Assembly: GCA_016350165.1 (NCBI GenBank)
Contig: CP066225.1
Location: 2,976,001-3,040,000 of the forward strand
DNA: 64,000 bases
Direction: 5' to 3'
Origin: Planctomycetota bacterium
GTDB taxonomy: Bacteria > Planctomycetota > Phycisphaerae > Phycisphaerales > Phycisphaeraceae
The notes below the pieces were generated by a model. That model saw nothing but the letters and a program-made list of their open reading frames with translations. It made no database searches and was not told where the DNA came from. The translations under genes and the position numbers were made by a program. Of the stretch, positions 5,677-29,502 are shown piece by piece (positions within the stretch are counted from its first letter, which is position 1; the number at the start of each line of letters is the position of its first letter).

Positions 5677-7221
5677 TTACTGTCTTAACTTACCCTTCGG
5701 ATCATAAACCACATCACTAATCATCAATTCAATCGGCTCATCATACTCCGCATCTTTATTCTTAAGAATCAGAATTGAGTCTAATGATGTGTTAGGCCCA
5801 TCAATCACACCGTTGCCCCCACCATAATTAAACCAGTGATCAACAACACGCAAATCCCACGCATAATTATGCCATTTACCGTCCGCGATGATCGGCATCG
5901 TTGATCCACGCTCATGACCTTTTGAAGTGTTCTCGAGTGGGTTCGACACATCATCTAGTACCAGCGATGCCTTCAGGTTTGGCGTTGTCGTCTTGATCTT
6001 GTACGTCACTGTACCGACGCGCCCCAAAGCCACGTTATGCTTCGGCTTCCCTTCACCTGAATACTCTCGAACTAAAACATCACTCCCCGCTTTGCTCTCA
6101 TCAATCACAACCTTTTTCAAATGCAAGCTGTCTGTCTTTTTCGACTTGGCATGCAAGATCGCTTCATGCTTCATTTGTAGTCGCAAGCTACGTTCTTCCC
6201 CTTCAAACTGAATATCAAACCACTCAAGTGCGACAGGTTCTTGCGGATAAGGCAACGCCTTCCTCGGCTTCGGCTTCGGTGCCATCGCAAGTGATCCCAT
6301 ATACTCAGGATTCGGCTTTGCAAACACAACCAAGGATGCAGCTACAAATCTCGGACGTCCCGTTCGACCATCTTCAAATGTGTCCGAAGGATTATTCGCA
6401 ACTCTCACTTCAGAGTCCGCAATTGCAAGCGTCGTCGAGCCGCCACCATCCAAGTTGATCGCATTCTCGCAACCTAAATCTCTGAACAAATCCGCCAACT
6501 CAAATAGCGTCATGCCTTCCGAGAACTCACTCTGTCTGCCATCCACAATCACCAACAGAATCGTGCCATCCTTTTTCCAACCTACTGCTGTTCTCGGATG
6601 TGTACTCGTTGTGAAACTCCATTTTTTCGTTTCAGGCATCATGCCATCTTCAAGTAATATATGTGAACCACCAATCGTATTATAAATCGGAGCATCCGCT
6701 GGAATCGTCTTCGCATTATTCGCTTTAGGTTCAGCCGACTTTACAATCGAAGCGACATTGTCCGCACTAATATTCAGGGCAGGCCACCCCTTGTAAAAAT
6801 TCGAATACACATTCCCCTCAGACGCTGCCAACCCTTTGATATCCGCATAAGGATGTTCTTTACTGATATCACCGTAAAACGCAGTGTTTATGCCTACCTG
6901 TGCTTTGACTTGTTCAACAAATACAGGCGTATGTACGCGCGTTACTTCAAGATTCGGGTCCCCCTCTTCCTCGCCATTCGGGTCGCCATTGGCAGGTGAG
7001 CACATAAAACGCACGCCTTTAGCTTTCGGATCAATTTCAATCACATTGATCACCGTGGGCCGCGGATTCTTCTGAATAATCTGTTTATGTTTCACCCCAA
7101 TAAACGGCTGCGCCTCTTTAACTTCCCCATTTATCTCCCATTTCCCCAGCGATTCATCCTCACCCCAAACCACACTACTCCCCACAAATGCCAATATTAC
7201 AGCCAAGCCAATTCGTTTCAT
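5677..7221 (-). CDS. Secreted phosphodiester glycosidase (NAGPA/DUF2233 family), copy A
   Basis: Proteins with this domain resemble the catalytic region of the mammalian uncovering enzyme, which hydrolyses GlcNAc-1-phosphodiesters; the bacterial substrate here is unknown. The 514-residue product starts at ATG 7221 (MKRIGLAV) with GGAG 9 bases upstream, and has a signal peptide ending near VVWG. The family core is visible: QIIQKNPRPTVINVIEID, GINTAFYGD, GGSHILLEDG, HPRTAVGWKKDG, LLVIVDGRQ and the diagnostic INLDGGGSTT. The last 150 or so residues form a separate beta-rich module (VGTVTYKIKTTTPNLKA, DGKWHNYAWDL) like a carbohydrate-binding jelly roll. It is a tandem paralogue of the next gene. 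The two share order and most motifs, but each has its own terminator, so they are probably separate transcription units. Confidence 0.85.
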   Translation of the reverse strand: MKRIGLAVILAFVGSSVVWGEDESLGKWEINGEVKEAQPFIGVKHKQIIQKNPRPTVINVIEIDPKAKGVRFMCSPANGDPNGEEEGDPNLEVTRVHTPVFVEQVKAQVGINTAFYGDISKEHPYADIKGLAASEGNVYSNFYKGWPALNISADNVASIVKSAEPKANNAKTIPADAPIYNTIGGSHILLEDGMMPETKKWSFTTSTHPRTAVGWKKDGTILLVIVDGRQSEFSEGMTLFELADLFRDLGCENAINLDGGGSTTLAIADSEVRVANNPSDTFEDGRTGRPRFVAASLVVFAKPNPEYMGSLAMAPKPKPRKALPYPQEPVALEWFDIQFEGEERSLRLQMKHEAILHAKSKKTDSLHLKKVVIDESKAGSDVLVREYSGEGKPKHNVALGRVGTVTYKIKTTTPNLKASLVLDDVSNPLENTSKGHERGSTMPIIADGKWHNYAWDLRVVDHWFNYGGGNGVIDGPNTSLDSILILKNKDAEYDEPIELMISDVVYDPKGKLRQ

Positions 7222-7337
7222 CACATTCACTCCAAAACCAAACACATCAATACATTCACACAAAATACTATCAGTAAAGAACAATTATAACTCGTCGTTA
7301 ACAATCACTACACCTTTTTCTTCACAGTAATACCACG

Positions 7338-7394: not shown

Positions 7395-8984
7395 TTACTC
7401 AAAATCATCGTTCGGGTCATACGTCACCGCATCAACCATGATCTCAATCACTTCACCTTGCTTGTTGTATTTCGCATCAGAAGTAATCAACAAACCATCT
7501 ATTGACGTGTTAGGCCCTTCCATCGCACCATTGCCATTGTAGAAGTTCGTCCAGTGATGAACCTTCTGCAAGTCCCATGCATAAAAATGCCACTTGCCGT
7601 CAGCTTTGATCGGACGATAGGTACCCTTCTCGTGTGCCTTGGATTTGTTCTTAGCAGGCTGAATCGTATCGTCAACCACAATCGAGGCCTTCAGATTAGG
7701 ATGCTTCGTTTTGATCCAATATCCAATAGTACCAACACGTCCAAGTACTTCATTGTTCTTGGTTGCGCCACCACCAGAGAGGAAGCGAAGCAGCAAGCCT
7801 TTGCCACTATCTTTACCACGAATAATGCGCATCCCCAAAGCTTTTTTACCTGAAGGTGCTGTTCGATCATTTACAATTTTAGCTTCAGACTTCTTGTCTA
7901 TGCAGCGATTAGAACCACATGCACTTACTGCACTACCAAAGTGGCCTAGATCCTTTTCGAAGTCATCGATGACGATCTTTTTCTTCGCATATGGAAGTGG
8001 CTTCGGTGGGGCAGGCTTCTTCGCCATCGGCAACGGCTTATAACCTGGCTTTCTCTTCGCAAACACCGCAATGTTCACACCATTCGAACGTTCACGGCCA
8101 GCATCACCATTCGCTTTCGCATCCGATGGATTGTTCACCACACGCAGCTTCGGATCAGCCATCACCATTGTTGATGAGCCGCCACCATCGAGATTCACCG
8201 CATCACTCGCACCGAGACCAATCATGATCTGTGCAAGCTCTGCCAATGAAGCGCCCTCAGTAAAGTCAGGCTGACGACCATCAACAGTCACCAACAACAC
8301 AATACCTTCAGCCGTATGGCCAGCCGCTGTACGTGGATGGAACACAGCACTGAAAGCACCGCTATCAAATTTCTTCGCTTCGCCGTTTTCGACTAGCAAG
8401 TGTGAACCCGAAATCGCGTTATAAGGCTCAACATCCTTACGTGATGTCTTATACGTTGGGCCATCATTGTTCTCAGGCAGCAACACACTCGGCGTACCAT
8501 CAGGACCAAAGTTAATCGCCGGCCATGGTCTGCCATACTGTGGCTCAAAAGGCGAGAACGCCACACCTTCAGAAACACCCAAACCAACAACATTCGTATC
8601 CATCGTTCCTTTCACAAACGCATAGAACGCTGCGTTAATACCTGCCTGCGCTTTCTCTTGTTCTAAGAACTGACGCACCGTTTGGCGTGTTGTCTCATGA
8701 TTCGGATCACCCGGCTCGTCACCATTGGGATCGCCATTGCCCGCCGTTACCTTAAACCGAACGCCATCAGCCTTCGGATCAATTCTCAATACATTGATCA
8801 CGCGCGGCCGCGGGCTCTTCTGAATAATCTGAATATGCTCCACCCCGACAAACGGTTCACTCTTCTGGATCTCGCCTTCCAGCTTAATCTCACTCGCCCA
8901 AACGCTGCTCCACAAACTCAACACCGCCAGCAAGCAAAGTGAAAATAACACAGGACCAGATAATCTAAATCTGCTCACGATCAA
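7395..8984 (-). CDS. Secreted phosphodiester glycosidase (NAGPA/DUF2233 family), copy B
   Basis: The 529-residue paralogue of copy A has the same layout: signal peptide (cleavage near VWAS), an IIQKSPRPRVINVLRIDPKA block, GINAAFYAF, ISGSHLLVENG, HPRTAAGHTAEG, VTVDGRQPDF and AVNLDGGGSSTMV. A C-terminal module with VGTIGYWIKTKHPNLKA and DGKWHFYAWDLQKVHHW follows. The C-terminal module is longer than in copy A and contains two Cys (SACGSNRC) that could form a disulfide in the periplasm. The differences are spread evenly, so this looks like an old duplication rather than a recent one. The function is hydrolysis of a glycosyl phosphodiester by family assignment; the true substrate is unknown. A perfect inverted repeat lies about 165 bases upstream. 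Confidence 0.85.
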   Translation of the reverse strand: MIVSRFRLSGPVLFSLCLLAVLSLWSSVWASEIKLEGEIQKSEPFVGVEHIQIIQKSPRPRVINVLRIDPKADGVRFKVTAGNGDPNGDEPGDPNHETTRQTVRQFLEQEKAQAGINAAFYAFVKGTMDTNVVGLGVSEGVAFSPFEPQYGRPWPAINFGPDGTPSVLLPENNDGPTYKTSRKDVEPYNAISGSHLLVENGEAKKFDSGAFSAVFHPRTAAGHTAEGIVLLVTVDGRQPDFTEGASLAELAQIMIGLGASDAVNLDGGGSSTMVMADPKLRVVNNPSDAKANGDAGRERSNGVNIAVFAKRKPGYKPLPMAKKPAPPKPLPYAKKKIVIDDFEKDLGHFGSAVSACGSNRCIDKKSEAKIVNDRTAPSGKKALGMRIIRGKDSGKGLLLRFLSGGGATKNNEVLGRVGTIGYWIKTKHPNLKASIVVDDTIQPAKNKSKAHEKGTYRPIKADGKWHFYAWDLQKVHHWTNFYNGNGAMEGPNTSIDGLLITSDAKYNKQGEVIEIMVDAVTYDPNDDFE

Positions 8985-9623: not shown

Positions 9624-10376
9624 TGGTTGACTCCTGATGGCACCGGTTGTGCTCATTCCTTTGTCATCTGCGAGACTCTTGCAGTCTCACGCTCCAGCAT
9701 CTCGACCCACGGGATGCCGGCCTTATCCACTCCGTGATCCAAACTCCTGACTGTCAGAGCCGTCTCTTTTACGACCAACTCTCAACCGGACCTTCGTATC
9801 ACACCAACGGTATCGACAATTACCGGATGATTTCTTGAGTGAATCTCTTAATACCTGAATAACAGGCTAAATATCTGCCAAATATATACTTAACGTGACA
9901 TTTGAACAATGTTCGTCCGGTAATATTCATCTAACCTGTATTGGTATCAGCCACCGGAAGTACTGCATAGACCTAGGCTTACCTCCATTTTCGACCAATA
10001 AGTCACGTTATCGAAAAATTTTGCACCACTTTTTCACATCTAAAAATCCACACCTTATAGGCCCGACCGAGAAGCAATTTACAAACTTTACCCCTGTTCA
10101 CCCCAATATCGCTTGCCAACACCCCTTCTGCCTCCAATCATGCCTAACCGCTCAATATCCCATAGCAATACTCCCTAGCCTCGCTCTCGCCCAACGATGC
10201 CGATATCAATCACATCATCCTTCAACACATTTCCACACACACTCATACACACGCAACCTCCCTCAAAACCAATCACTTAGAGTCAAGTAAAGCAATTTCA
10301 CCCACCATTCTTCCTGATCTTTGTCGTTTCAGGTTGCATTGATACAGGGAAATTGGTATTTTGATTAGTCAAAGTT
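9624..10376. other. Gene-poor 750-base spacer between flgM and the iron island
   Basis: This divergent intergenic region becomes increasingly C-rich on the + strand toward 10.3 kb. An open frame at 9895-10290 encodes a His/Ser/Pro-rich product without a ribosome-binding site or family resemblance, and I do not accept it. A single TGATTAG half-site of the palindrome found before feoB lies at 10362-10368, just before the regulator gene. Confidence 0.5.
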
Positions 10377-11378
10377 ATGAGCAATACTATTCAAACAATG
10401 ATCCTCGTCGCGATCGCACTACTTCTCTGCATCGCTATCTACCTTCTCATCAGACGTGAGAAGGCTCGCAAATCCTACGCACAGCTCGAAGACGCGCTTA
10501 AATATCTCGTCACTGCAGCTTTCGATCAGCAGCTCGTCACGCCCGACACGCTCGCCGGTGCACTCCATCTTTCGCGCACCGCCGCGCTTCAGCTCATTGA
10601 TCGCCTTCAATCCCAATCACTCGTCACCTTCGAGCAGAACAATCTCATCCTCACAACCCTAGGCCGCCAACGTGGCCTCAAACTCCTCCGAGCTCACCGC
10701 CTCATCGAACGCTACCTTCACGACGAAGCCAACATGCCGCTCGATCGCATTCACGCCGTCGCCGAACGTCGTGAGCACAATCTCACCGATCAGCAAATCT
10801 CAGATCTCGACGCACATCTCGGCTACCCACAGTCCGATCCCCACGGCGACCCAATCCCCACACCCCAAGGCCAAATCCCCAACACCCCACGCTTCCTCCT
10901 CAAAGATTGGCCCCTCAATTGGCCCGCCTCGATCATCCACATTGAAGATGAACCTGCCGATTCATTCCAACGCATCACCAAGCAAGGCCTCCTCCCCTCA
11001 TCACTCATCACCATCCTCCACGCCTCCGAGTCCACCCTCACCATCCAACACCAGGACCAAACAATCGAACTCCCCAAAACACTCGCTTCATCAATCCACG
11101 TGCATGCTGCAGACAATCAAGCGATCCAACAGGAGTCCTACATGACCCTCGCCGAATTACCCGACAACCATCAAGCACGCGTCATCAACATCCACGAGCA
11201 ATGCCAAGGCCTTTCACGCCGCCGACTTCTCGACCTCGGTGTCACTCCCGGTGCAACCATCGTCACCGAGCTCGCCTCCCCCGGCCGCTCCGCCCGCGCA
11301 TACCGCATCCGTGGCACACTCATCGCATTACGCAAAGATCAAGCATCCCAAATCGCAATCCAGCCCATCCCCGCATAA
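10377..11378 (+). CDS. Membrane-anchored DtxR-family metal regulator with FeoA-like C-terminus
   Basis: Order of parts in 333 residues: a transmembrane helix (about 6-25), a winged-helix DNA-binding domain (about 35-100), a DtxR dimerisation/metal region, a middle SH3-like segment, and a C-terminal FeoA-like SH3 domain. The dimerisation region includes LRAHRLIERYLHDEA, HAVAERREHNLT, and LGYPQSDPHGDPIP, the last being a hallmark of the family. The FeoA-like domain (about 255-330) contains RLLDLGVTPGATIV and YRIRGTLIALRKDQA. Canonical DtxR/IdeR proteins are soluble Fe(II)- or Mn(II)-dependent repressors of about 230 residues. The membrane anchor is the odd feature. It lies 114 bases upstream of the split feoB genes on the same strand and is C-rich like them. 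Role inferred: ferrous-iron sensor controlling the adjacent uptake and efflux genes. There is no strong Shine-Dalgarno sequence. Confidence 0.85.
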   Translation: MSNTIQTMILVAIALLLCIAIYLLIRREKARKSYAQLEDALKYLVTAAFDQQLVTPDTLAGALHLSRTAALQLIDRLQSQSLVTFEQNNLILTTLGRQRGLKLLRAHRLIERYLHDEANMPLDRIHAVAERREHNLTDQQISDLDAHLGYPQSDPHGDPIPTPQGQIPNTPRFLLKDWPLNWPASIIHIEDEPADSFQRITKQGLLPSSLITILHASESTLTIQHQDQTIELPKTLASSIHVHAADNQAIQQESYMTLAELPDNHQARVINIHEQCQGLSRRRLLDLGVTPGATIVTELASPGRSARAYRIRGTLIALRKDQASQIAIQPIPA

Positions 11379-11458: not shown

Positions 11459-11475
11459 ACTAATCATTGATTAGA
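11459..11475. promoter_or_regulatory. Candidate metalloregulator operator upstream of feoB G-protein gene
   Basis: A perfect 7-1-7 palindrome CTAATCATTGATTAG (11460-11474) ends 18 bases before the start codon. A near-identical palindrome occurs before the feoB permease gene. The adjacent DtxR-type regulator is the obvious candidate ligand, but this is inference. Confidence 0.55.
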
Positions 11476-11492
11476 AAGATCCAGGCATACCA

Positions 11493-12347
11493 ATGAGCTG
11501 TTCAGGAAATTGCAACTGTAGTCACAACAACTACCTCACCGGAGGCAACACCGTCGGCCTCTCCATCGGTGGTCACTCACGCACCATCGCACTCGCTGGC
11601 AACCCAAACACCGGCAAGTCCACAGTCTTCAACGCACTCACCGGCCTCCGCCAACATACCGGCAACTGGCCCGGCAAAACCGTCACACGCGCTGAAGGCC
11701 ACTACAACTTCAACAACTTCAGCTACAAGCTCATCGACCTCCCCGGCACATACTCACTCCTCTCCGCATCAGTCGACGAAGAAATCGCACGTGACTACAT
11801 CCTCTTCGGCCAGCCTGATTGCACCGTCGTCGTCGTCGATGCAACTGCACTCCAACGCAACCTCAACCTCGCCTTTCAGGTCATGGAAATTACCCCAAAA
11901 GTTGTTCTTTGTGTCAACCTCATCGACGAAGCAGCACGCAAAGGTTTCGACATCGATTTCCAAGCACTCGAAGACAAACTAGGTATCCCCGTCGTTCCCA
12001 CCGCAGCACGCCGTAAGCAAAACCTCGATCTGTTACAGGAAGCTATAGAAGCTGTTTGCACTGGTAAACTCAAGCCAAAACCAAACATCCCCGCTCCCCC
12101 GCCAGATCTCAAAGAAGCAATTGATCAAACGCTTCCACTCATCGAATCCATCGCACCGGGCCTCCCATCCGCACGCTGGGTCGCATACCGACTCATTGAA
12201 GGCGATACACGCATTCGCCGCGCACTCGAAACCGGCGAACTCCAACAACTCGCCGGCATCAAACTTCCTTCATCTCCAAAACCCACGCCACCCTCACCAA
12301 CACCAGATGCCGCCCAAAACCCAACAGACAAAAAACAATCCGCCTGA
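11493..12347 (+). CDS. feoB: FeoB N-terminal GTPase as a separate protein
   Basis: This is the G-protein half of the ferrous iron transporter. Of 284 residues, the first 13 form a Cys-rich start (Cys at 3, 7, 9) that may bind metal. G1 is GNPNTGKST (36-44), switch I follows, G3 is DLPG (82-85), and G4 is NLID (142-145, specifying guanine), followed by a helical GDI-like region and a Pro-rich tail. In classical FeoB the same chain continues into the membrane domain. Here it stops and the permease begins as its own gene 151 bases later. Both have their own start, and an operator-like palindrome lies between them, so this is a real split rather than a frameshift. The two proteins probably meet again at the inner membrane to import Fe(II). 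Confidence 0.93.
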   Translation: MSCSGNCNCSHNNYLTGGNTVGLSIGGHSRTIALAGNPNTGKSTVFNALTGLRQHTGNWPGKTVTRAEGHYNFNNFSYKLIDLPGTYSLLSASVDEEIARDYILFGQPDCTVVVVDATALQRNLNLAFQVMEITPKVVLCVNLIDEAARKGFDIDFQALEDKLGIPVVPTAARRKQNLDLLQEAIEAVCTGKLKPKPNIPAPPPDLKEAIDQTLPLIESIAPGLPSARWVAYRLIEGDTRIRRALETGELQQLAGIKLPSSPKPTPPSPTPDAAQNPTDKKQSA

Positions 12348-12407: not shown

Positions 12408-12424
12408 TCTAATCAATGATTAGA
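12408..12424. promoter_or_regulatory. Candidate metalloregulator operator between the two feoB halves
   Basis: A perfect 7-1-7 palindrome CTAATCAATGATTAG (12409-12423), flanked by T and A, lies 75 bases before the permease start. It differs from the site at 11460-11474 only at the central base. Confidence 0.55.
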
Positions 12425-12498: not shown

Positions 12499-13959
12499 AT
12501 GAGTTCCGCACAAGACACAAAACAAGTTCTCGACAAAATCGACGCCATCCGCAAGCAAGCCGGCTCGCAATTTCGCGACCAGATCGTCACCTCCATGTAC
12601 GATCAAGCGGAATCCATTACCGATGACGTCGTCACACGATCCAATAAGCGTTGGACTTTCGACGCATCACTCGACTACGTCGCAACACATCCACTGCTCG
12701 GCCTCCCCTTTATGCTCGGCCTCCTCGCACTCACTTTCTATCTCACCATCGCCGGCGCTAACATCCCCTCAGCTTTTCTCGCTGGACTCCTCATGGAACA
12801 AGGCGGTCTCGCCGGTTTCTTCGAAGAATTCAGCATCACCATCCCCGCATTCCTTCACTACTCAGTTTACGACCTCCTCCATATCGCCACCTCTTCTTGG
12901 ATGAACGCAAACCTCGCCTCATTCCTCATTGACGGCATCTACCTCACACTCGGCTGGGTCATCTCCGTCATGCTCCCACCCATGGCCATCTTCTTCCCAA
13001 TCTTCACACTACTCGAAGACCTCGGCTACCTCCCTCGTATCGCATTCAACCTCGATTGGCTTTTCCAAAAATCCGGCGCTCATGGCAAGCAAGCACTCAC
13101 TATGTGCATGGGCTTCGGCTGTAACGCAGCCGGCGTAACAGCCTGCCGCATCATCGACTCACCACGCGAAAAACTCATCGCCATCCTCACCAACAACTTC
13201 ATGATTTGTAACGGCCGCTTCCCCACCATCATCGCAGTCGCACTATTCTTCTCAGTCTTCCTCGGCTACTCCGATGCACTCGTCTCTCTCACCGCCGCAT
13301 CCATCGTCATCGCGATTGTCCTCTTGGGTGTCGTCTTTACTTTCGTCACCTCATTCATCCTCTCAAAAACGCTCCTCAAAGGTGAAGCCTCCGCATACAC
13401 ACTCGAACTACCTCCATACCGCCGCCCAGCTGTACTCCGCATCATCTACACCTCACTCATCGACCGCACACTCTTCATCCTCGCTCGTGCTTGCGTCGTC
13501 GCTATCCCCGCAGGTGCTGCAATCTGGATCGCAGCCAACGTCAACATCGGCAATGAATCCGTCGCAACTCATCTCATCAATTTCCTCCAACCCCTCGGTT
13601 ACCTCATGGGCCTCGATGGTGCCATTCTCCTCGCATACATCATCGCAATCCCCGCAAACGAAATCATCGTCCCAACCATCATCATGCTCTACATCCGCCA
13701 CAATACCATGATCGAATTTGAAGGCGACGCACTACATAAAATCTTCATCGAGCAAGGGCACTGGACCCTCCTTACCGCAATCTCACTCCTCCTCTTCTGC
13801 CTCCTTCACAACCCCTGTGGCACAACCATCTGGACAATCTACAAAGAAACCAAATCCAAAAAATGGACCATCTTTGGCTCGCTCTTCCCCGTCGTCCTCG
13901 GCATCGCAGTCTGTATCATCGTCGCTGCAACTTGGCGTCTCGTCGCCAGCGCATTCTAA
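12499..13959 (+). CDS. feoB: FeoB membrane permease domain as a separate protein
   Basis: The 486-residue membrane half of FeoB moves Fe(II) across the inner membrane. After a soluble N-terminal 60 residues come hydrophobic segments with FeoB gate and core motifs: LPRIAFNLDWLFQKSGAHG, then TMCMGFGCNAAGVTACRII with the conserved Cys-containing Gate motif. NNFMICNGRFPTI and, near the C-terminus, LHNPCGTTIWTIYKE, the second Gate region, follow. It depends on the separately encoded GTPase upstream. The promoter is possibly its own, as a palindrome lies 75 bases upstream. A strong terminator follows 70 bases after the stop, which closes the feo unit and leaves the ATPase gene to its own promoter. 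Confidence 0.94.
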   Translation: MSSAQDTKQVLDKIDAIRKQAGSQFRDQIVTSMYDQAESITDDVVTRSNKRWTFDASLDYVATHPLLGLPFMLGLLALTFYLTIAGANIPSAFLAGLLMEQGGLAGFFEEFSITIPAFLHYSVYDLLHIATSSWMNANLASFLIDGIYLTLGWVISVMLPPMAIFFPIFTLLEDLGYLPRIAFNLDWLFQKSGAHGKQALTMCMGFGCNAAGVTACRIIDSPREKLIAILTNNFMICNGRFPTIIAVALFFSVFLGYSDALVSLTAASIVIAIVLLGVVFTFVTSFILSKTLLKGEASAYTLELPPYRRPAVLRIIYTSLIDRTLFILARACVVAIPAGAAIWIAANVNIGNESVATHLINFLQPLGYLMGLDGAILLAYIIAIPANEIIVPTIIMLYIRHNTMIEFEGDALHKIFIEQGHWTLLTAISLLLFCLLHNPCGTTIWTIYKETKSKKWTIFGSLFPVVLGIAVCIIVAATWRLVASAF

Positions 13960-14238: not shown

Positions 14239-16734
14239 ATGCATACTGTTAAACTCACTGTCCAGGACTGCAACTCTCATCCAGCCGACAAATGCCGCGA
14301 CTGCATCACACGTCGTCTTCTCGATCAGCCCGGCGTTACCGCTTACAAATTCGAAGAGTCTAATCAATCGCTGCACGTTAAAGTCACATATGATCCACGT
14401 GTCCTTACGCTCTCTGAACTCGCCCGCCAGCTTCGCTGCTCTCACGCTCATCTCGATCCAGACATTGCCCAAATGGTTATCAAACTCAAAGGCATGCACA
14501 ATCAGCGATGTGAACGCACTATCGAATCAACCCTCAATCATCTACCCGGCGTCTACGCCACTGCTTCATACCCCTCTTCATCACTCCGACTCGAATTCGA
14601 TCGTTTACAATGCCCGCTCCCAGAAATCATCCGCCGGCTCGATATCCTCGGTTACTCCCCCATCTTCCCAGCACCACCATCACTTATCCCCCCCACACCC
14701 TCATCCGACATCTCACTTCCCCAAGCACCAACCGAACAGCAAATTGAACAACCAGTTACAAAACCAAACCGTCTAATCAGCGCATGGACGTGGCTTCGCG
14801 CTCATCCCGACATCCTCCTTATCATCATCTCCGCAATCTCATTTCTCATCGGGTTCATCGTCTTCATGACCTCCGGCCCCGACGCACTTCGTATCACTTT
14901 CCTCGCCATTGCCGCAATCACCGCCTCAACTCAAACCGCGCCTGAAGCAGTCCAATCACTTCGGCAATTCAAACTCGATGTCGATGTCCTCATGTTCGTC
15001 GCCGCAGCCGGTGCCGCTTCGCTCGGCCACTATGAAGAAGGTGCATTCCTCCTCTTTCTCTTTGGTCTTGGTGCAGCCGGCGAACATCTTGCGCTCGGTC
15101 ACGCACGCTCCGCCATCCACGCACTCTCAAACGTTACCCCCGAAACCGCTGACCTCCTCCTTTCTGATGGTTCAACCAAAACCATTCCTGTATCTAACTT
15201 GCAGATAGACGATAAGCTCCTCGTTAAACCTTTTGCGCGTATCCCCGCTGACGCAACCATAACCCTCGGTTCATCCCTCGTCGATCAGGCTACCATCACC
15301 GGCGAGTCCGAACCTGTCGCCAAACAGCCCGGCGACACCGTTTTCGCTGGCACCATGAACACCGATGCATCACTCACGATCACCGTCACCAAGCCCGCCT
15401 CAGAATCCACCATCGCGCGTATCCTCAAACTCGTTGAAGAAGCTCAGACCACCAAATCAAAAACTCAACTTTTCACGGATCGTATCGAAGCTGTCTACGT
15501 CCCCTTCGTCTTCATCGCGACACTACTCCTCATCTTCGCCGTCCCACTTTTAACCACAAAAACATGGGGTAATTCGTTCCTTCACGCCATGGCATTCCTC
15601 ACCGCCGCCTCACCATGCGCTCTCGCCATCGGCACCCCCGCCGCCATTCTCTGTTCCATCGCCCGCGCCGCCCGTCTCGGTGTCCTCGTCAAAGGTGGTA
15701 TCCATCTCGAACGTCTCGCGCACGTAAACACTCTTGCCTTCGACAAGACTGGCACCCTCACCACCGGCTCACCAACTCTCCACGACATCATCTCTGCCGA
15801 TGAATCTATCTCAGAGTTAGATCTCCTCACTCTCGCCGCCTCCGTCGAACAGTCAATCTCTCACCCACTTGCAGAAGCCATCACCGCAAACGCAAAATCC
15901 AAAAACCTGAATCTTTATCCAGCAACCAACCTCACCCAAACAGCAGGGCAGGGAGCAACTGCAACTGTCGATAATCAGCTCATCACCGTAGGCAAAGTAG
16001 CCGATCAATCCATTATCTCTATTCATCTGTTAGAGCAGGCCAACGAACTCGAAACCCAAGGCAAAACCATTGTCTACATCACCCGTGACAACACCCAAAC
16101 GCTCGGCCTCCTCGCCCTCGCCGACACCATCCGCAATAACGCCCAGCAAACCATCGCCGACCTCAAGCAAACAGGCGTCAACCACATCACCCTTCTCACC
16201 GGCGACCACAAGCAAGCCGCGCAGCATCTCACAAACCTCGGTCTAACTTCCATTCACGCTGACCTCCTCCCTGAGGACAAACTCAACATCATCGACGATC
16301 TCACCACGCAATACCATCATGTCGCCATGGTCGGCGACGGCGTCAATGATGCTCCCGCTCTCGCACACGCATCCGTCGGCATCGCGATGGGCGCAGCAGG
16401 TTCCGACGTTGCGCTCGAAACCGCCGACATCGTTCTTCCCGGCTCCGATCTCTCGCGCATCCCGCACGCCATTCAGCTCGCCCGTTCATCACGCGCCATC
16501 ATCATTCAAAACCTCACCTTCGCCCTCGCCGTCATCGCCATCGTCTCCCCCCTCGCCGCGCTCGGCTTCGCCAACCTCGCTGTTGCCGTCTTCCTCCACG
16601 AAGGGTCCACCGTCCTCGTCACACTAAACGCACTCCGCCTTCTCCGCTTTAAACCCAATCAACCTCACCAACCAATCGCTCCATCAACATCTCAACCCGC
16701 CGAACCCCAAACCCCAGAACTAACCAGCGCTTAG
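14239..16734 (+). CDS. P1B-4-type metal-efflux ATPase (Fe(II)/Co(II) class)
   Basis: This is an 831-residue inner-membrane heavy-metal P-type ATPase. The subclass follows from two signatures. SPC (458-460) replaces the CPC of Cu and Zn/Cd pumps in the metal-binding TM helix, and HEGST (787-791) is in the last TM region; together these define P1B-4 pumps such as B. subtilis PfeT, Listeria FrvA and mycobacterial CtpD. The phosphorylated Asp502 is in DKTGTLTTG. Also present are TITGESEP, the HP motif region SISHPLAEAI, and MVGDGVNDAPALAHA. The N-terminal 150 residues hold two degenerate HMA-like folds, one with several Cys (11, 19, 22) and one with GMHNQRC where GMTCxxC is usual. Next to feoB and a DtxR regulator it most likely exports excess Fe(II). 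It has its own transcription unit, as a terminator lies upstream. Confidence 0.9.
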   Translation: MHTVKLTVQDCNSHPADKCRDCITRRLLDQPGVTAYKFEESNQSLHVKVTYDPRVLTLSELARQLRCSHAHLDPDIAQMVIKLKGMHNQRCERTIESTLNHLPGVYATASYPSSSLRLEFDRLQCPLPEIIRRLDILGYSPIFPAPPSLIPPTPSSDISLPQAPTEQQIEQPVTKPNRLISAWTWLRAHPDILLIIISAISFLIGFIVFMTSGPDALRITFLAIAAITASTQTAPEAVQSLRQFKLDVDVLMFVAAAGAASLGHYEEGAFLLFLFGLGAAGEHLALGHARSAIHALSNVTPETADLLLSDGSTKTIPVSNLQIDDKLLVKPFARIPADATITLGSSLVDQATITGESEPVAKQPGDTVFAGTMNTDASLTITVTKPASESTIARILKLVEEAQTTKSKTQLFTDRIEAVYVPFVFIATLLLIFAVPLLTTKTWGNSFLHAMAFLTAASPCALAIGTPAAILCSIARAARLGVLVKGGIHLERLAHVNTLAFDKTGTLTTGSPTLHDIISADESISELDLLTLAASVEQSISHPLAEAITANAKSKNLNLYPATNLTQTAGQGATATVDNQLITVGKVADQSIISIHLLEQANELETQGKTIVYITRDNTQTLGLLALADTIRNNAQQTIADLKQTGVNHITLLTGDHKQAAQHLTNLGLTSIHADLLPEDKLNIIDDLTTQYHHVAMVGDGVNDAPALAHASVGIAMGAAGSDVALETADIVLPGSDLSRIPHAIQLARSSRAIIIQNLTFALAVIAIVSPLAALGFANLAVAVFLHEGSTVLVTLNALRLLRFKPNQPHQPIAPSTSQPAEPQTPELTSA

Positions 16735-29487: not shown

Positions 29488-29502
29488 CTAATAAATGATT
29501 AG
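29488..29502. promoter_or_regulatory. Feo-type palindrome with one mismatch
   Basis: CTAATAAATGATTAG differs by one base from the palindrome between the feoB halves. It lies between a stop codon and a terminator, 320 bases before the next gene, so a regulatory role is doubtful. Confidence 0.25.

Follow-up and report, generated by a model that had tools for sequence, protein, structure and literature searches.

Is a DtxR-type protein that is held in the membrane beside a ferrous-iron importer a transcription factor, or is it a component of the importer itself? The question is raised by a gene of a Planctomycetota bacterium at 10377–11378 (plus strand) of the window, the 64,000-nucleotide stretch of DNA analysed here. 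The 333-residue product is identified as a membrane-anchored DtxR-FeoA protein by Pfam, a start-codon check, hydropathy and AlphaFold modelling. On the same strand follow feoB-N, which encodes the GTPase half of a split FeoB with a Cys-rich N-terminus (11493–12347; PF02421, 9e-60), and feoB-C, which encodes the membrane half (12499–13959; PF07670, 6e-30, and PF07664, 2e-13). The first-pass annotation had proposed that DNA binding takes place at the membrane, close to the regulated transporter, and that the FeoA-like domain could contact FeoB.

Domain architecture and membrane anchor

The transmembrane (TM) anchor comprises residues 7–26 (10395–10454, plus strand) and is predicted to be N-out/C-in by the positive-inside rule. 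The mean Kyte-Doolittle hydropathy is 3.02 over residues 7–25, and the segment is followed by RREKARK. Only two in-frame start codons, M1 and M8, precede the winged helix, with a stop codon just upstream; the hydrophobic stretch is retained from either start, which rules out a start-codon artefact. The AlphaFold model (32 homologues; pLDDT 90.4, pTM 0.83) places the TM segment in a single helix of residues 2–49 that merges into DtxR helix 1. Solved DtxR/IdeR/MntR chains align to residues 30–246 of the model only (best match 5zr6; Z 25.8, rmsd 1.5, 206 residues). The model and the structural alignment thus exclude the hydrophobic segment from the soluble core, as the first-pass annotation had held in placing a TM helix before the winged helix, and residues 1–29 and 256–333 are additions to a complete DtxR fold.

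The remainder of the protein (all plus strand) has the order of winged helix, metal domain and SH3 domain found in DtxR/MntR regulators: (i) a winged helix at residues 37–92 (10485–10652), which matches IdeR/MntR in structure but has a diverged recognition helix, (ii) a metal-binding and dimerisation domain at residues 93–162 (10653–10862; Fe_dep_repr_C, PF02742, 5e-22) with near-invariant ligand columns, (iii) a first SH3/FeoA-like domain at residues 175–245 (10899–11111), which is delimited by the structural alignment to residue 245 and has a weak PF18357 match, and (iv) a C-terminal FeoA domain at residues 256–329 (11142–11363; PF04023, 7e-21). The C-terminal FeoA is the second domain of its kind, as the region before it is the SH3 domain that MntR and IdeR already have. 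An H-x-E-D-E-P motif (residues 188–193) in the first SH3 domain is near-invariant across the family. In Pfam searches of the window protein, the DtxR DNA-binding domain PF01325 has no match at E 0.1, the ABC-3 permease domain PF00950 that is present in permease-DtxR fusions is not found, and DUF4381 matches at E 0.008, a match seen in only one family member.

Compared with soluble DtxR, IdeR and MntR proteins (5zr6, 1u8r and 8pw0), the family shares the fold over residues 30–246 and the metal-ligand positions but adds the anchor and the second FeoA and has an unconserved recognition helix. A similar layout is that of PgMntR from Porphyromonas gingivalis, in which a winged helix, a metal/dimer domain and twin FeoA/SH3 domains occur in the same order (PMC4805248). 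Unlike the window protein, in which the winged helix begins at about residue 37 behind the TM helix, PgMntR starts its DNA-binding domain at residue 13, has no TM anchor and is purified as a soluble DNA-binding protein (PMC4805248).

Distribution and linkage to feoB

The family was analysed at 102 loci (two pairs of which have one sequence in common), selected without regard to FeoB adjacency or the anchor by a similarity ranking that favours full-length matches. At least eight phyla are represented. A scan of GTDB genomes finds members in the Chloroflexota, Acidobacteriota, Bacteroidota, Ignavibacteria, Gemmatimonadota, Verrucomicrobiota, Calditrichota and Myxococcota, and named species with the family include Maribacter polysiphoniae, Tamlana agarivorans, Cyclobacterium qasimii and Aeoliella straminimaris. 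In the class of the window organism, a profile search identifies clear members in 21 of 397 genomes, beneath which the E-values jump from 1e-112 to 1e-46, while a phylum-wide sample has members in 8 of 392 genomes, three of them already counted in the class set. Most members are 30–40% identical to the window protein; a contig scan queried with this single protein gave no matches, and the alignment as query found members.

An FeoB G1 motif is encoded directly downstream of the DtxR-FeoA gene in all 102 loci, and PF04023 is detected in each of the 32 members checked. The N-terminal segment is of TM grade in 86 of the 102 loci, so homologues do not start past the hydrophobic stretch, and the cytoplasmic flank is the more positive one in 83 of these 86. 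In the seven anchor-less members from the Planctomycetota, a short segment containing Trp and Arg replaces the TM helix. The presence or absence of the anchor needs four state changes on the tree, some of them losses of the TM helix, and the anchor is thus probably ancestral.

Of the 94 loci with a readable FeoB end, 72 have a split FeoB and 22 an unsplit one. A pure scaffold, in which the anchored protein uses FeoA to bring the GTPase half of FeoB to its membrane half and senses metal only to a minor extent, would account for the frequency of the split. This reading is nevertheless highly improbable: nearly all loci with an unsplit FeoB still encode the anchor, several anchor-less members are paired with a split FeoB, and the metal ligands are the most conserved positions of the protein. 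A physical link to FeoB through FeoA, as the first-pass annotation had suggested, does appear likely by analogy, given the adjacency in 102 of 102 loci and the known docking of FeoA (PMC8980893).

Several features of the neighbourhood are also noted. In the window, the FeoB GTPase half has a Cys-rich, CxxC-type segment at its start, MSCSGNCNCSHNN (in the gene at 11493–12347), where many relatives have ENCPVH or ACASC; judged by its sequence, this segment is a possible metal or redox site. A heavy-metal P1B-type ATPase with HMA domains is encoded directly after the feo genes (14239–16734) and likewise downstream in the sister genome. Elsewhere in the window genome lies a second feoA-feoB pair, which is canonical and has no DtxR part (L093, about 396–398.3 kb). 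On the minus strand, 5677–7284 and 7395–8984 are tandem paralogous open reading frames of about 530 residues, similar in sequence and with signal-like N-termini.

Metal site and recognition helix

The metal-ligand positions D39, H107, E111, H126, E133 and H134 have a pairwise identity of 0.987 across the family. The exposed positions of the recognition helix (alpha-3; residues 67–79 of the window protein, 10575–10613, plus strand) have a mean pairwise identity of 0.14, compared to 0.37 in a set of 19 diverse soluble DtxRs whose dimer domains are equally divergent (0.54 versus 0.52 in the family). None of 300 equal-size subsets of the family reaches the soluble value. Position 75 is Lys or Arg in 19 of the 19 soluble DtxRs and mostly Ala, Glu, Thr, Asp or Gln in the family. 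The net charge of residues 50–96 has a median of -1 in the family versus +2 in the soluble proteins (p 0.0015, with relatedness ignored) and is -2 in the window protein. PF01325 is recognised in 1 of 32 members and in 10 of 10 soluble paralogues. Between the window species and its sister species, residues 66–82 are identical at 9 of 17 positions in proteins that are 80% identical overall, and the palindrome that precedes the gene is kept despite the change of the helix.

These sequence comparisons point to a relaxation or loss of sequence-specific DNA binding in the anchored family, and we infer that the winged helix has been retained chiefly for its role as a structural connector and would bind DNA with little or no sequence specificity. 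As the DNA-reading face looks worn, the anchored protein probably controls the importer itself. The proposal of DNA binding at the membrane, near the controlled transporter, is weakened accordingly by the unconserved recognition helix (0.14 versus 0.37), the net negative charge of the region and the PF01325 counts, and also by the occurrence of the palindrome before soluble dtxR genes. On that proposal, the iron-loaded dimer, held in the membrane, would occupy its own operator and repress feo in cis, in the manner of other membrane-bound one-component regulators. The retained winged-helix fold and a palindrome 3 nt before the ATG are in its favour; it is an unlikely reading, as the recognition helix and wing are neither conserved nor positively charged and the helix changed between the sister species while the palindrome stayed.

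Palindromes and transcriptional control

The palindrome TTTGATTAGTCAAA (10360–10373) ends 3 nt before the ATG and is a probable soluble-DtxR operator, as judged from sequence; it has one match in the window versus 0.18 expected. The exact form TTTGA-N4-TCAAA is found upstream of 7 of the 102 family genes versus 0.01 expected, and it precedes 12 of 27 soluble dtxR genes from this phylum versus 0.0 expected; these expectations are rough, as they derive from mononucleotide shuffles and some of the genomes are related, and both lists include some palindromes from the gaps between divergent dtxR and feo genes. A further three members, all without an anchor, have the palindrome across their first codons (L038, 6851–6864; L039, 8171–8184; L040, 7106–7119), and the N-terminal TNQN peptide common to all three is thus a translated operator. 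Other phyla have different palindromes upstream, such as TTTAGGC-N2-GCCTAAA. Over the family as a whole, upstream inverted repeats are enriched (46 of 102 versus 20 in shuffles), which is consistent with repression in cis by the anchored dimer, whereas the presence of the same palindrome before soluble dtxR genes counts against it.

A soluble dtxR adjoins the feo genes in 38 of the 102 loci. The arrangement is mostly divergent in the Planctomycetota, where the soluble DtxR has a conserved recognition helix; in the Bacteroidota, the soluble dtxR often opens a compact four-gene operon in which genes partly overlap (e.g., Maribacter polysiphoniae). Because the same palindrome precedes soluble dtxR genes, the soluble DtxR is the likelier reader of the palindrome. 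The simplest reading is that the operator is recognised by the soluble DtxR, which has the anchored protein among its targets. For the window genome this control is proposed by analogy, since its soluble dtxR lies elsewhere and has no such palindrome upstream (best match, 2 mismatches).

The FNR consensus has an N6 spacing. An FNR box is ruled out as the identity of the palindrome, which has a TTGA-N4-TCAA spacing. Across genome G000 the palindrome has 11 sites versus 4 for the control; no clear iron regulon is seen among these sites, which have an OprB porin and a SelR protein among their neighbours.

A separate 15-bp palindrome, CTAATCANTGATTAG, occurs in each of the two gaps between the feo genes (11460–11474 and 12409–12423), with a near-copy at 29488–29502. 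The genome has 40 exact copies versus 0 for the reversed control, and the loci fetched from other genomes have none. From its sequence, it may be either a genome-specific dispersed palindrome or the site of a global regulator.

Origin of the anchor

The first-pass annotation took known DtxR proteins to be soluble. This does not hold for YtgC/YtgR of Chlamydia, a permease-DtxR fusion of a type reported in 11 phyla (PMC5599777). YtgR is documented to be cut free from YtgC, and the released YtgR is an active DNA-binding repressor (PMC5599777). ABC-3 permeases with a C-terminal DtxR core are also encoded in the same genomes as the family; in many relatives, one or two metal ABC permeases are fused to DtxR cores (L103–L122), several with two such genes adjacent.

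Most family members and most of these fusions have a linker in common. In the two fusions checked, a P-x-x-G motif starts two residues past the end of the permease domain, and its Pro is 21 residues before the Glu of E-D-x-L-K, at which the DtxR core starts. The linker P(-21)xxG(-18) is found in 64 of 97 family members (52 of 67 from other phyla and 12 of 30 from the Planctomycetota) and in 27 of 33 permease fusions, and almost never at other offsets. The motif is absent from the window protein, which by sequence comparison has lost it. A three-group tree without an outgroup could not place the family; placement came after solved soluble structures and other phyla were added. In trees of the DtxR core, which exclude the linker and include five soluble proteins of solved structure, the Feo-linked and permease-linked cores split together from the soluble DtxRs with 100/99 support (root not placed).

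The family resembles YtgC/YtgR and the ABC-3 fusions in having the DtxR core joined to the membrane directly behind a TM helix, in the register of P-x-x-G in most members and in its side of the tree. It differs in that it has a single TM helix without a permease domain, adds an SH3 and a C-terminal FeoA domain and is paired with FeoB rather than an ABC transporter; cleavage is documented for YtgR. The core and linker ancestry appears to be common to the family and the permease-linked DtxR domains, and the anchor resembles the final helix of a metal ABC permease. As the tree root is not placed, a fusion to the permease that came first and was followed by permease loss is the direction that we infer.

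The shared ancestry also bears on the possibility that the anchor stores an inactive DtxR-FeoA, which proteolysis frees upon a change in iron status, as for YtgR. The core ancestry, the linker common to the permease-DtxR fusions and the documented release of YtgR (PMC5599777) are compatible with such storage. It is very improbable, however, in view of the same decay of the recognition helix that weighs against repression in cis, the continuous modelled helix of residues 2–49 without a flexible linker, and the soluble DtxR already encoded beside many loci.

Proposed mechanism

In a natural FeoA-FeoB fusion, FeoA docks on the G domain of FeoB depending on the nucleotide state and stabilises the GTP-bound form of that domain (PMC8980893). 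The family is similar to FeoA and to FeoA-FeoB fusions (BfFeoAB, PMC8980893) in that FeoA is coupled to FeoB and encoded first, before feoB; it differs in that the fusion partner of FeoA is an anchored metal sensor and not the G domain. Based on the docking in the natural fusion, a tethered FeoA with metal-set docking is proposed. The preferred reading, with a probability of roughly 0.6, is that the anchored protein is a FeoA subunit that senses Fe(II)/Mn(II) and tunes FeoB, while a soluble DtxR controls transcription. The gene would then encode the FeoA component of a Feo importer for ferrous iron, in the form of a metal sensor anchored in the membrane. Fe(II) or Mn(II) in the cytosol would occupy the DtxR site and change the shape of the tethered dimer; the change of shape would alter the docking of FeoA on the FeoB G domain, which is usually a separate protein here, and the altered docking would provide local feedback on iron import. 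Transcription of the operon would more likely be under a soluble DtxR that reads TTTGA-N4-TCAAA. The anchor, the conservation of the metal site and the linkage to feoB are computed, and metal sensing, docking and gating would be the functions that they serve.

Several points run counter to the anchored sensor. The window protein is without P-x-x-G, the soluble dtxR of its genome is without the upstream palindrome, and the TM helix has been lost in some members. The recognition helix of a local autoregulator could drift together with its operator. The chlamydial YtgR, also a permease-linked DtxR, is an active DNA-binding repressor once cleaved (PMC5599777). The fuller account, in which a DtxR fold taken over from an ABC-permease fusion ceased to read specific DNA sequences and now serves in many phyla as a tethered Fe(II) sensor that gates the FeoB GTPase through FeoA, giving post-translational feedback beside a transcriptional soluble DtxR, is tentative, with odds slightly below even.

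Significance

In the open-access literature covered here, no description was found of a membrane-anchored protein that combines DtxR and FeoA and is encoded beside feoB; in one Feo study, DtxR-FeoA proteins were manually excluded from the survey (PMC8980893). The soluble twin-FeoA PgMntR (PMC4805248) and YtgC/YtgR are already known, and the anchored DtxR-FeoA is a variant of such systems. The way in which FeoA works with FeoB has been termed enigmatic (PMC8980893). The family joins a metal sensor, FeoA and a membrane anchor in one polypeptide, and because the FeoB GTPase is usually a separate protein, sensing, GTPase control and transport are separable in vitro. For annotation, the lesson is that a DtxR-like metal domain alone does not make a transcription factor.
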